From: Streptomyces sp. E2N166
GTDB lineage: Bacteria > Actinomycetota > Actinomycetes > Streptomycetales > Streptomycetaceae
NCBI RefSeq assembly: GCF_003671715.1
Contig: NZ_RAIF01000012.1
Location: 723,879 to 787,878, forward strand
Length of the DNA stretch: 64,000 nucleotides
Direction: 5' to 3'
Positions within the stretch are counted from its first letter, which is position 1. Every line of letters starts with the position of its first letter. This document shows positions 9,600 to 61,680 of the stretch, one piece after another. Both the position numbers and the translations under genes were made by a program. The notes below the pieces were generated by a model. It made no database searches. It had not been told where the DNA came from and worked only from the letters and a program-made list of their open reading frames with translations.

Positions 9600-9646
9600 T
9601 GGGGCGGGTGGGACTCGAACCCACGGCCGGCGGATTATGAGTCCTT
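9600..9646 (-). pseudogene. 3' half of a CAU-anticodon tRNA (tRNA-Met type) at an integration junction
   Basis: On the minus strand the sequence has an anticodon loop with CAT (complement of 9637-9639), the 3' anticodon strand, a perfect T-stem/loop (GTGGG, TTCGAGT, CCCAC) and a 3' acceptor strand ending CCGCCCCA. No D-arm or 5' acceptor strand is found upstream; that sequence is replaced by the repeat at 9637-9659. This is what remains when a tyrosine-integrase element recombines in the anticodon loop. No CCA is encoded, as is common in Streptomyces. Confidence 0.75.
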
Positions 9647-9659
9647 TTCGGATCTTCCG
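9637..9659. repeat. att-like 23-bp direct repeat, copy 1
   Basis: The 23 bp starting ATGAGTCC and ending CTTCCG recur exactly at 15099-15121 in the same orientation. This copy overlaps the anticodon side of the tRNA remnant. Similarity between the two loci continues loosely for about 120 bp downstream. Interpreted as the core of an attachment site. Confidence 0.75.
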
Positions 9660-9760
9660 ATCCGGCCCCACTCTTGCCTCGATCTTCCTATAACCGCAGG
9701 TCAGAGGCACTTCGCCGTTCTGGCCCTGAGCCGGCCTTCCTGATCCTTCCGGGTCCTTCC

Positions 9761-56660: not shown

Positions 56661-57020
56661 GTGCCTCAAGCCAGGCGAGAGAAGAAGGATCACCTGATCT
56701 ACGCGGACGTCGTGGACTCCAAGTCCAAGGCGGGCGTGTGGATGGGTGAGCGGGCCTCCTTCCAGGAGAAGCAGGGCCGCATCATCGAGGCGCTCAAGGA
56801 GCAGACCGACTGGGTCGAGCTGAAAGACGCGATCATGGTCATCGGCACCGACCCCGCCGGCATCACGGTCATCGCCCCCAACCCGACCCTGCCGGGCGTG
56901 ATCGTCCTCGCCGACGGTGGCTCCCCGGCCACCTCGGCGAAGCTCCAGGCCACCGCGGAGGAGAAGGTCCGCGCGGTCATGGGCGAGCTCGGGATCGCCG
57001 AAGAGGAAACGGCGGCCTGA
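56661..57020 (+). CDS. Unknown 119-residue protein preceding two radical SAM genes
   Basis: Starts MPQARREKKDHLIYADVVDSK and continues with helical (EKQGRIIEALKEQTDWVELKDAIMVIG) and Pro/Gly-rich (APNPTLPGVIVLADGG) stretches and an acidic end. GTG with GAGAGGA 6 nt upstream; only 5 nt separate it from the radical SAM gene. It could be a partner or carrier protein, or a long precursor peptide, but has no Cys and no obvious leader/core layout. Confidence 0.5.
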   Translation: MPQARREKKDHLIYADVVDSKSKAGVWMGERASFQEKQGRIIEALKEQTDWVELKDAIMVIGTDPAGITVIAPNPTLPGVIVLADGGSPATSAKLQATAEEKVRAVMGELGIAEEETAA

Positions 57021-57025
57021 GCAAC

Positions 57026-58327
57026 ATGGCCGTCCCCCGGATGCTGTGGGGGAAGTACTTCCAGTACGAGCGGGACGGGGAAGCAGTTCTCCTCGACCCG
57101 GTCGAGCTGGACAGTGTGTTCATCGACTCCGGCGAGGTCCACGACCTCGCCGGGGTCCCCCCGACCGCGACTCATGAAGCCCTCGCAGGGCTCGGCTTCA
57201 CCTCCGACGGCCCCGTGGCCGACCGGCGAGAAGCACTCCGTAACCGTCTTCGACTCCTTGGGCTCGACGCCACACCTCACCGCATCAGCGGTCTGCGCGT
57301 AGTGCTCACCGACCGCTGCAACATGGCCTGCACGTACTGCTTCGTCGATACGAACACCGGCAAGCCGGACATGACGAAGGAGGAGCTGTCGGAGGGCCTG
57401 GAGTTCCTGTTCGAGCAGAACGCCGGCCAGGAAGAGGTGTCCATCCAGTGGTTCGGCGGCGAGCCGACGATCCGCTTCGACCTCATGCAGTACGGCGACC
57501 AGTTCGCAGACACCCTCGCCGACCGCTACGGCGTTGCAAGGGTCCGGCGCACGGTCGTCACCAACGGGGCCCGTCTGACCGACGAAGCCCTCGACCACTT
57601 CGTCGCGTACGAGTACGGGGTCGGCATCTCCATCGACGGCCCCCCGGGTATCAATTCCGCCCACCGCCTCCTGCTCGGCGGAAAGCCCGCTGACGACCGC
57701 ATTCGCCGCAACGTCAGCCGATTCGTCGAAGCGGAGGGGCTGCACGTGGGCTGCAACCTCACCCCGACGGCCGCGAACATCGGGCGCTTGGCCGAAACGG
57801 TCCGGTGGATCATCGATGACCTCGGGCTGAAGTTCATCTACGTCAACACGCCCATCCCGACTGCGGGCCGCTGGCAGGTAAAGGGCGCAGACCTGGCTCA
57901 GGAGCTCTACGAGGCCCGCTTGGCCGCCCTGGGTCGCGGCGGAATGCTGTTCTCTGTCCTCGATCGCGCCTTCCAGGCCCTCGACACCCGTCGGCCGATG
58001 CTGTTCGACCACATGCAGGGGGACCGCAGTCTGAACGCCGCCCTGCTGCCCGGCAACCGGGTCAGCCTGTGCGACATCAACTTCACCGAGCCGTCATTCC
58101 TGCACACCCTGGACGAGTTGCGTGCTGATCCAGGACAACTGGCTGGTGTGGCGAAGAACGTCGCGCCCATCCCCGAGTGCGGGAACTGCCCGGCGCTCGC
58201 CATCTGCGGCGGCCCCTCCCGCAACGAACAGGCCCTCGTCGGAGGCACCAGCCCTGATCCCGAGATGTGCGCGTTCTACACGAGCACCGTGGAGATCGCC
58301 GTGTGGGACAACACGGGGGTGCAATGA
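57026..58327 (+). CDS. Radical SAM/SPASM-type enzyme 1
   Basis: A 433-residue protein. The radical SAM cluster motif is CNMACTYC (Cys98, Cys102, Cys105), preceded by LRVVLTDR; FGGEPTIRF is the SAM-binding glycine loop. The C-terminal part has Cys residues in CGNCPALAICGG and CAFY, as in SPASM/twitch auxiliary cluster domains of peptide-modifying enzymes. The first 80 residues look like an extra recognition domain. The stop overlaps the start of the second radical SAM gene (ATGA). Confidence 0.85.
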   Translation: MAVPRMLWGKYFQYERDGEAVLLDPVELDSVFIDSGEVHDLAGVPPTATHEALAGLGFTSDGPVADRREALRNRLRLLGLDATPHRISGLRVVLTDRCNMACTYCFVDTNTGKPDMTKEELSEGLEFLFEQNAGQEEVSIQWFGGEPTIRFDLMQYGDQFADTLADRYGVARVRRTVVTNGARLTDEALDHFVAYEYGVGISIDGPPGINSAHRLLLGGKPADDRIRRNVSRFVEAEGLHVGCNLTPTAANIGRLAETVRWIIDDLGLKFIYVNTPIPTAGRWQVKGADLAQELYEARLAALGRGGMLFSVLDRAFQALDTRRPMLFDHMQGDRSLNAALLPGNRVSLCDINFTEPSFLHTLDELRADPGQLAGVAKNVAPIPECGNCPALAICGGPSRNEQALVGGTSPDPEMCAFYTSTVEIAVWDNTGVQ

Positions 58328-59229
58328 GCGTCCAAGTCCGTACGGCGCTGGTCTCCACGGCCGGGCACTGCAAGGTGGCCTGCGGCTTCTGCTTCCGCGC
58401 TGACCGAGCTCACGGCTTTCTCGACACCGCGACGTACACACGCACACTGTCGCGGCTGCGGGAAGCCGGCGTAGAGGGCGTATGTCTGACGGGTGGCGAG
58501 CCCACCCATCATCCGCAGCTCAGGCAGCTTGTACGGCTGGCGCACCAGTTCGGCATGTCGGTGTCGATGGTGACCTCGGCTCGCTCCGTGGCCGAGGTCA
58601 TCGCCCTCTCCCACGTGACCCACCTACTGAGCAACGTGACCGTGTCCGCCGACTCACAAGGCGCGATGCTGCTGGGACGCACGACCCGCACAGCGGCCTC
58701 GGGCATCGCCACGCTACGCGCCATCAGCACCGAGACGAAGATCCTCCACGTCACCTGCTGGGGCCTGAGCGACGATGAGTGCCAGGAGCTGGCCGACCTC
58801 GTGTCCGAGGCAGGCGTGGAGGTCCAGTTCAGCCCCGTCGTCCTCGACGAGCGCGCCTTGCGCCGGGACGGCAAGTCGGTCCAGGACTATCTGGTACAGC
58901 AGCATCTGGACGCCGACGTGCTGAGCCGCTACTTCAACCTGTCCGATCGGTACCGGGCCTACCTCGGCGAGCTCCGGGATCTACAACTGCCACCGACGGG
59001 GGGCGAGCGGTGGTCGTGCCGCTCGGCGACCGCGTACGTGTCCGCGGACGGTCACATACGGCGCTGTCCCTACGGCCAGGCATCAGTCAGCGTCGATGCA
59101 CCTCGGGCCAGCATCAGACAGTTCCTGACCGATCCGGCGCAGGACCGCGTGACCCCGGACTGCGCTGCAATCTGCCGCTCCTCCGCCGCACCCGACGACC
59201 GCACGGCGTCGTGCGCCGCGCCGGCGTGA
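58324..59229 (+). CDS. Radical SAM enzyme 2
   Basis: A 301-residue protein with the cluster motif CKVACGFC (Cys16, Cys20, Cys23), GGEPTHHPQL, and a C-terminal Cys-bearing stretch (WSCRSATAYVSADGHIRRCPYG, then CAAICRSS) that may hold another cluster. MoaA/NirJ-like in shape. The ATGA overlap with enzyme 1 implies that both act in one pathway. Confidence 0.8.
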   Translation: MSVQVRTALVSTAGHCKVACGFCFRADRAHGFLDTATYTRTLSRLREAGVEGVCLTGGEPTHHPQLRQLVRLAHQFGMSVSMVTSARSVAEVIALSHVTHLLSNVTVSADSQGAMLLGRTTRTAASGIATLRAISTETKILHVTCWGLSDDECQELADLVSEAGVEVQFSPVVLDERALRRDGKSVQDYLVQQHLDADVLSRYFNLSDRYRAYLGELRDLQLPPTGGERWSCRSATAYVSADGHIRRCPYGQASVSVDAPRASIRQFLTDPAQDRVTPDCAAICRSSAAPDDRTASCAAPA

Positions 59230-59251: not shown

Positions 59252-60034
59252 ATGGACCGCCCTATGACGATCACGACACCGGACGACTTCACACATCGGT
59301 GGCGGCAACCACCGAACTTCTCCTTGGAGGTCGCCTTCGACTACACGTTCCTGCCCGCCATCGACGTCCTCGACCACATCCGCCGGGACGCGGAAGTGCG
59401 CTTCACGATCCTCGGGGACGACGATTGGCAGGTGCGCATGGACCGCACCGCCGCCTTCTGCACCGCCCCGCTCGAAGAGATCGTCACGTGGCCGTTCCGG
59501 CTGGTGCACTTCAACCTCAGCCGCTTCTACGACGACCTTCTGCACGGCTTCCAGGACGAGGTAATGATCCCCTGGCGCGCCCATCTGTCCGCCCAGGGTT
59601 TCACCTGGCAGCGCCTGGCTCCGATCCTCTTCCTGTCCACCGAAGGCGCGTCCTCGACGTACCACAACGACAACTCGCACGGCCTGGTCTGGCAGGTGCA
59701 TGGCACCAAGACGTTCCACAGCTACCTCACACCCGACAAGCACCTCTCAGCCGAGGCCGCGGTGATCGGCGAGACGACGGGTGAGGAGCCGCCCGAGCAT
59801 GACGCGGCCGACCGCCAGTCGGTCGTCATGCGGCCCGGCGACCAGTTGTGGAGCCATGCCCTGACCCCCCACTGGGTCACCACCGAGTCGTCGCTCGCCA
59901 TGAGCGTCACCCTCTCCCACGGCGGCCTGTGCCACCAGGGCCGCTTCTCCGACCGGGAGTTGGCACTGCGGGCCTACTGGGACAAGAACCCTGCCGAGGC
60001 GTGGACGCATGACCTGCGCAGCGTCCGCTACTGA
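59252..60034 (+). CDS. Cupin/JmjC-like oxygenase
   Basis: A 260-residue protein. TYHNDNSHGLVWQVHGTKTFHSYLTPD gives the His138-x-Asp140 pair and the Lys/aromatic strand, and GDQLWSHALTPHWV supplies the distal His (202, or 207), as in JmjC/cupin-type Fe(II)/2-oxoglutarate oxygenases. Such enzymes hydroxylate or crosslink amino-acid residues. ATG 59252 has no clear ribosome binding site; ATG 59264 is an alternative. It follows the radical SAM pair closely. Confidence 0.65.
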   Translation: MDRPMTITTPDDFTHRWRQPPNFSLEVAFDYTFLPAIDVLDHIRRDAEVRFTILGDDDWQVRMDRTAAFCTAPLEEIVTWPFRLVHFNLSRFYDDLLHGFQDEVMIPWRAHLSAQGFTWQRLAPILFLSTEGASSTYHNDNSHGLVWQVHGTKTFHSYLTPDKHLSAEAAVIGETTGEEPPEHDAADRQSVVMRPGDQLWSHALTPHWVTTESSLAMSVTLSHGGLCHQGRFSDRELALRAYWDKNPAEAWTHDLRSVRY

Positions 60035-61403: not shown

Positions 61404-61440
61404 TGCGGTCCTCCGAAGGACATCGTCATGATCCCTTGGG

Positions 61441-61680
61441 AGTGCGGGCGAGAAGGGCAACTCGCGGTGCCACCGCACTTTCGCCGCCACAGCGTGGCGG
61501 CCTCATTCGGGCCCGCTGACGGGGGCCAACCGGCGGGGCATTGGACCACCGAACGGGGTCGTTCCTCCCCGCGCTCAGGAGGGTCTTCGCCTCGGGGCGC
61601 GAGGCCGCCTTTCCAGCTTCCGGCGGCTCTCTCGACTCGCGTGATCCCGGGCTACTCGTCTCCATCAACGCGTTGTCCAG
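61441..61680 (-). promoter_or_regulatory. T-box leader of the aspartyl-tRNA synthetase gene
   Basis: On the minus strand, in order: GACGAGTAG (61652-61660, AGTA-type bulge), GTCGAGAGAGCCG (AGAGAG, near 61625-61635), GCTGGAAAGGC (61608-61618), and the T-box GGTGGCACCGCG (61463-61474). Order and spacing match T-box riboswitches with a short stem I, as in actinobacterial ileS. The synthetase ribosome binding site sits in GTCCTTCGGAGGAC, able to fold on itself, so regulation of translation is likely. The specifier codon is not resolved (GGGATCACG holds both ATC and GAT). Confidence 0.75.

Follow-up and report, generated by a model that had tools for sequence, protein, structure and literature searches.

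A T-box leader with an aspartate specifier precedes a duplicate aspartyl-tRNA synthetase gene beside a biosynthetic cassette in Streptomyces: a probable self-resistance switch

Introduction

Some antibiotic biosynthetic clusters include self-resistance synthetases, such as SerRS2 of albomycin and of valanimycin and IleRS2 of mupirocin. We know of no self-resistance synthetase whose gene has a T-box specific for the cognate amino acid, and the accessible literature yielded none.

T-boxes of Streptomyces and other actinobacteria are placed on ileS only in the accessible literature (PMC1262725), which agrees with a preliminary description of the present locus that they are known chiefly for that gene. 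Most translational T-boxes have an intermediate or ultrashort Stem I and are devoid of the distal motif (PMC7583486). Among the Asp T-boxes of TBDB, 94% have GAC as their specifier (PMC7778990). According to the accessible part of the report on Bacillus cereus lysK, which codes for a second LysRS, its T-box is partly inducible by reduced charging of Asn-tRNA (PMC2916919).

Here, we describe a T-box upstream of aspS2, a duplicate aspartyl-tRNA synthetase gene of Streptomyces sp. E2N166. It is probable that this translational, long-Stem-I GAC T-box controls aspS2 as a backup that provides self-resistance against a product of the adjacent cassette, which would block the housekeeping AspRS.

Results

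The T-box, its specificity, its conservation and its genomic linkage are supported directly by the sequence of the window (the whole 64,000-nucleotide stretch of DNA analysed) and of its relatives. The T-box upstream of aspS2 is real. The preliminary description had recognized the element before a second AspRS gene, and both points are borne out by a covariance-model search, in which Rfam RF00230 was matched from end to end (model 1-219) at 61677-61441 of the minus strand, from Stem I to the antisequestrator, just 5' of aspS2 (61403-60093, minus strand). The match scored 78.6 bits, with an E value of 2.3e-17 for the 601 bases searched and 7.1e-17 genome-wide (7.9 Mb). The gathering score of RF00230 is 93, and a default scan skips the aspS2 leader. 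Its sub-cut-off score is no argument against a T-box, since the ileS T-box of the E2N166 genome reaches 60.4 bits and none of the RF00230 matches, present in 130 of 150 Streptomyces genomes and including ileS, lies above 93. The motifs follow one another in T-box order on the minus strand, as had been described: AGUA of the Stem I S-turn (61656-61653; 5' strand of the specifier loop), which is aligned to the Rfam AGUA; AGAGAG (61632-61627), the distal Stem I T-loop (IDTM) motif, invariant at five of six positions and at least 90% conserved at the sixth across 71 leaders; GCUGG (61617-61613), the second distal motif according to both the RF00230 alignment and leader conservation; and GGTGGCACCGCG, which contains UGGC at 61472-61469 and has its 3' end at 61463. 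A probable promoter, recognized by pattern only, is formed on the minus strand by TTGCGG (61711-61706) and TATCCT (61687-61682) with an 18-nt spacer, so placed that the predicted transcription start coincides with the 5' end of the T-box. Of 83 distinct leaders, 55 have the putative pattern TTGNNN-17 to 19-TAYNNT, which sits 6 or 7 nt 5' of the T-box in the leaders listed. Elsewhere in the window, a tRNA-like match with a CAU anticodon loop (9600-9669, minus strand; Rfam 36.1 bits) is not called by ARAGORN.

The secondary structure was evaluated for 70 pairs over 71 distinct leaders, and 97.7% of the cells were paired. Double changes were observed in 25 pairs, compared with a mean of 10.3 after shuffling (none of 500 shuffles was as high), and slid-partner controls were far lower, with loss of the covariation signal. 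This signal was strongest in antisequestrator helix A1 and in Stem III. The antisequestrator (61479-61441, minus strand) consists of A1 (helix 12; 61479-61473/61447-61441), which is 99.8% paired and has two-sided changes in three of seven pairs (in 35, 21 and 15 sequences), and A2 (61465-61461/61452-61448), which is 99.7% paired. Stem I contains a K-turn, the AGUA S-turn and the specifier loop, its lower helices being 99.5-100% paired; with its conserved distal AGAGAG/GCUGG it is of the long kind and not the ultrashort Stem I of actinobacterial T-boxes.

Within the specifier loop, which reads GAA-GAC-C-CUCC on the minus strand and is followed by closure of the lower helix through CUCC, the TBDB rule takes the second to fourth bases of the specifier bulge, counted from its 3' end, and gives GAC (Asp) at 61585-61583. 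The ATC (Ile) or GAT (Asp) proposed earlier both fall outside the specifier position, and with GAC as the codon the puzzle that they posed disappears. GAC is retained in 80 of 81 distinct leaders, the single exception being L071, in which Stem I is lost. In that AspRS2 leader, Stem I has been replaced and the 3' half is intact, and it is probably a decayed element. The genome encodes tRNA-Asp(GUC), cognate to both the GAC specifier and aspS2, and UGGC of the T-box bulge (UGGCACC, 61472-61466, minus strand) is complementary to the 3'-ACCG of tRNA-Asp, whose discriminator is G73.

That the T-box reads another tRNA, either Ile through ATC or Thr through an ACC register one base downstream, is very improbable. 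The Thr register can appeal to the equal spacing to GAA in GAAG-ACC and in GAAG-AUC of the ileS T-box, and to a few UGGA leaders that are compatible with U73 of tRNA-Thr. However, the TBDB rule gives priority to the GAC register, and UGGC rules out tRNAs with A73 or U73, which are those for Ile and Thr, respectively, in this genome, where both tRNA-Asp and tRNA-Asn have G73. Moreover, a sister T-box on a duplicate seryl-tRNA synthetase gene (SerRS2) in the same genomes, 79-87% identical to the Asp T-box, has UCC (Ser) at the exact place of GAC; in L074, the Stem I halves of the two T-boxes show about six differences, two of them within the specifier. This natural GAC/UCC swap fixes the reading register, and the Ile, GAT and, together with the discriminator, Thr readings were rejected on these grounds. 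Of 83 leaders, 52 have UGGC, 26 UGGU and five UGGA. The 26 UGGU leaders require a G-U wobble with G73, for which Trp T-boxes offer a precedent (PMC7778990), and the five UGGA leaders are unable to pair with G73; both count against the Asp reading, but sensing of Asp by the T-box is well supported by the sequence comparisons as a whole. The UGGA bulges occur at L026, L072, L073, L074 and L205, where a SerRS2 gene is also found whenever the flank suffices.

Downstream of the antisequestrator, the RNA is predicted to form a sequestering hairpin (61434-61397, minus strand) in which GGAUCAU (61434-61428) pairs with AUGAUCC of the start region (61403-61397). Inside it, a smaller hairpin of GUCCU (61421-61417) and AGGAC (61412-61408) holds the SD sequence GGAGGA (61414-61409); a UA to CG double change occurs in this SD hairpin in 34 of 71 leaders, and GUCC/GGAC becomes GCCC/GGGC in about half of them. 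UGAUCC stands at the gene start in all 71 genes with T-box leaders (one of which starts with GTG) whatever comes after it, and does not occur there in the listed AspRS2 genes that lack a T-box; this different start in T-box-less homologues links the start region with the RNA. Since these hairpins around the SD and start codon are conserved and no terminator was seen, there being no U-run 3' of the antisequestrator in the leader sequence, control of aspS2 is probably translational. It is unlikely, though not to the degree of a misread tRNA, that the leader acts on transcription, through attenuation or RNA decay, rather than on translation initiation. Such action would suit the prediction of the SD hairpin in every state that was folded, but it fits poorly with the missing U-run, with the conservation of an SD/start-codon hairpin and its link to the T-box, and with the translational action of known actinobacterial T-boxes (PMC1262725, PMC7583486).

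For the switch itself, the start-site hairpin and the antisequestrator are predicted in silico to be able to coexist. CCCUU in the A2 loop (61457-61453, minus strand) is complementary to AAGGG (61437-61433), which overlaps the start helix; both sides are invariant in 71 leaders and show no covariation, so this is a candidate pairing only. Three other devices were considered and rejected: a CCCUU:AAGGG pseudoknot atop the full antisequestrator, which is geometrically unlikely (3-nt linker, 12 bp); a leader ORF (AUGACGAUG...UGA overlapping the start) for translational coupling, whose frame and start many leaders do not retain; and a helix between the T-box strand and ACCGCA 5' of the start codon, which is not conserved.

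The aspS2 gene (start codon 61403-61401) codes for an archaeal-type AspRS of 436 aa (AspRS2), which scores 483.2 bits with NCBIfam NF003483 (cut-off 353) and 391.5 with TIGR00458 aspS_nondisc (cut-off 368.4), both being aspartate--tRNA(Asn) ligase families. The housekeeping bacterial-type AspRS is encoded separately (G000:C40:102381-104114; TIGR00459, 604.8 bits), and the genome-wide RF00230 search found no T-box at that gene. In the indirect pathway to Asn-tRNA, AspRS charges both tRNA-Asp and tRNA-Asn. As no AsnRS scored over the cut-off in the genome and GatB is present, the housekeeping AspRS presumably feeds both tRNAs, and a useful backup must then be non-discriminating; these same features of the genome make it likely that AspRS2 charges tRNA-Asp and tRNA-Asn. 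Two AspRS2 copies per genome are found in G006 (C1 and C9, both with T-boxes) and G169 (C13 and C23). A different AspRS2, 37% identical, is encoded at L203:7579-8859 (minus strand) next to transporter, ureohydrolase-like and ornithine-cyclodeaminase-like genes, which suggests another biosynthetic cluster; this type has the same kind of GAC T-box (with UGGU), the T-box being seen in L174. One further AspRS2 gene, of 79% identity, lies on a 790-kb linear Streptomyces plasmid (L276, NZ_CP109170.1) and has no cassette within 9 kb.

Convergent to aspS2 is a cassette of four genes on the plus strand. The first (56661-57020) codes for a 119-aa protein of no Pfam family, a possible modified precursor, whose first 30 residues are strongly conserved and predicted to be disordered and whose C-terminal part is folded; it may comprise a core and, C-terminal to this, a recognition domain. 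A fold search with this model, in which the N-terminus is of low confidence, gave no significant PDB match. The other genes code for radical SAM enzyme 1 (57026-58327), nearest in NCBIfam to the PapB/SPASM peptide maturases, radical SAM enzyme 2 (58324-59229), recognized by profile matches, and a JmjC/cupin_8-like oxygenase (59252-60034; Pfam PF13621, E 3.9e-4, below the cut-off). The cassette was not found on plasmids, and among the genomes sampled from the class the only cassette protein was that of the window itself.

Using radical SAM 1 at 74% identity or more as the cassette marker, we found AspRS2 in 34 of 393 Streptomyces genomes and the cassette in 19, all 19 among the 34 (hypergeometric 1.8e-23, a value that ignores common descent and concerns two physically linked items). 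AspRS2 adjoins the cassette wherever the latter is present. Among loci with enough flank, the cassette is present in 32, and all 32 have the T-box. Another 24 loci have AspRS2 and its T-box with no cassette, and five have cassette fragments only; in L259, for example, the fragment is the C-terminal half of the JmjC gene (92% identity). When presence of the cassette is mapped onto the AspRS2 tree, about five changes are required. The possibility that AspRS2 is a mobile backup against general Asp starvation or AspRS inhibitors of foreign origin, with only a loose connection to the cassette, is the most serious of the alternatives, but still an unlikely one. It would account for the patchy distribution of AspRS2 (34 of 393 genomes), the plasmid copy, the many loci without the cassette and the prophage-like genes adjoining aspS2 in the window, but not for the cassette implying AspRS2 in 19 of 19 genomes, nor for the five cassette remnants beside an intact AspRS2, which indicate loss of the cassette and not chance proximity. 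A resistance gene would be expected to persist once the cassette is lost, as the synthetase does, although this is not proof of such a role.

The association with biosynthetic genes is constant in these 19 genomes; four genomes (G005, G011, G073 and G276) have divergent cassettes and no AspRS2. SerRS2, at 83% identity or more, is found in eight genomes, all with AspRS2 and 3-15 kb from it; the T-box with a long Stem I and UCC is present in all SerRS2 loci examined. SerRS2 lies next to AspRS2 at L201:6843-8156, L202, L258, L205, L072, L073, L074 and L107, and is more distant at L204. The positions of SerRS2 and its T-box also coincide in G097, G104, G110 and G146. This linkage also bears on the idea that AspRS2 supplies Asp-tRNA as a substrate for the product, with the Asp T-box topping up the enzyme when Asp-tRNA is drained. 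Such a role, which we regard as quite unlikely, would agree with AspRS2 always adjoining the cassette where the latter is present. It is difficult to reconcile with the presence of SerRS2 beside AspRS2 in eight genomes, with AspRS2 and its T-box being nearly as frequent without the cassette (24 with none and five with remnants) as with it (32), and with profile searches that recognized no aminoacyl-tRNA-dependent enzyme family in the cassette.

In two of the four divergent-cassette genomes, a foreign alpha-beta GlyRS is encoded about 6 and about 13 kb from the cassette. Among the 393 genomes, 15 have such a GlyRS, including three of the four with divergent cassettes (P 1.8e-4, ignoring descent); G011 and G276 are apparently close relatives, and the GlyRS link represents at best one or two events. 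Fused alpha-beta GlyRS genes near divergent cassettes are located at L255:13497-16568 (minus strand) and G011:C29:37707-38561, and L255 also has YcaO and TfuA thioamidation genes nearby. Within its conserved segment of predicted disorder, the 119-aa protein contains V-D-S-K in cassettes linked to AspRS2/SerRS2 and V-G-S-R in the divergent ones, with G in place of D. As a speculation that we hold to be rather improbable, cassettes of radical-SAM-modified small proteins might yield amino-acid-mimic inhibitors and travel with resistant synthetases for the mimicked amino acid, those for Asp and Ser being under matching T-boxes. If this were true, the core residue of the 119-aa protein (D or G) would name the target enzyme.

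Discussion

From the features described above, we infer tRNA binding, a switch, translational control and a role in resistance for the aspS2 leader. If the housekeeping AspRS were blocked, uncharged tRNA-Asp would accumulate; its GUC anticodon would pair with GAC of Stem I, its elbow would dock on the distal motif of Stem I, and UGGC would pair with its free GCCA end. This pairing would stabilize the antisequestrator and expose the aspS2 SD and start codon. If the tRNA were charged, there would be no such effect, and the start site of aspS2 would remain in its hairpin. Induction by an uncharged tRNA, as had been suggested for this locus, fits the logic of the specifier and the T-box bulge.

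The likeliest blocker of the housekeeping AspRS would be the product of the adjacent cassette, in which case aspS2 would be a self-resistance gene. That a cluster product blocks this enzyme, also suggested previously, gains indirect support from the co-occurrence of AspRS2 and the cassette, from retention of the synthetase after cassette loss, and from the linked SerRS and the divergent-cassette GlyRS duplicates. Self-resistance to the cassette product is, in our judgement, the best current explanation for aspS2.

With these observations, actinobacterial T-boxes are seen on duplicate Asp and Ser synthetase genes in addition to ileS. Full-text literature searches, whose coverage was partial and did not include TBDB, returned no report of a Streptomyces aspS or serS T-box, and the novelty of these T-boxes is provisional. 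The arrangement suggests a simple circuit for inducible self-resistance, whereby the cell would sense the damage, namely uncharged tRNA-Asp, and not the antibiotic. The T-box specifier would thereby predict the target of the natural product of the cassette, making the latter a lead for AspRS inhibitors, and a T-box combined with a duplicate synthetase may serve as a signature for genome mining.

Like the self-resistance synthetases of antibiotic clusters, AspRS2 is a duplicate, divergent enzyme encoded beside biosynthetic genes. It also resembles the second LysRS of B. cereus in being a second synthetase of different descent under a T-box; the synthetase and the phylum differ, and a link to a biosynthetic cassette is not seen for lysK in the accessible part of the source (PMC2916919). 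With the actinobacterial ileS T-box, which is present in the same E2N166 genome, the aspS2 leader shares the RNA family, the T-box bulge and the antisequestrator (PMC1262725; PMC7583486), as well as the absence of a terminator, a predicted sequestration of the start site and probable control of an aminoacyl-tRNA synthetase. The two differ in specifier and bulge (GAC and UGGC in aspS2, AUC and UGGU in ileS) and in the gene controlled, which is a duplicate synthetase in one case and the essential one in the other; moreover, the aspS2 T-box has a long Stem I with AGAGAG/GCUGG, unlike most translational T-boxes. A long Stem I, GAC and the UGGN logic are in turn common to the transcriptional Asp T-boxes of Firmicutes (PMC7778990). 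In contrast to these, the aspS2 leader has no terminator, belongs to another phylum and precedes a duplicate archaeal-type synthetase gene beside a biosynthetic cassette.
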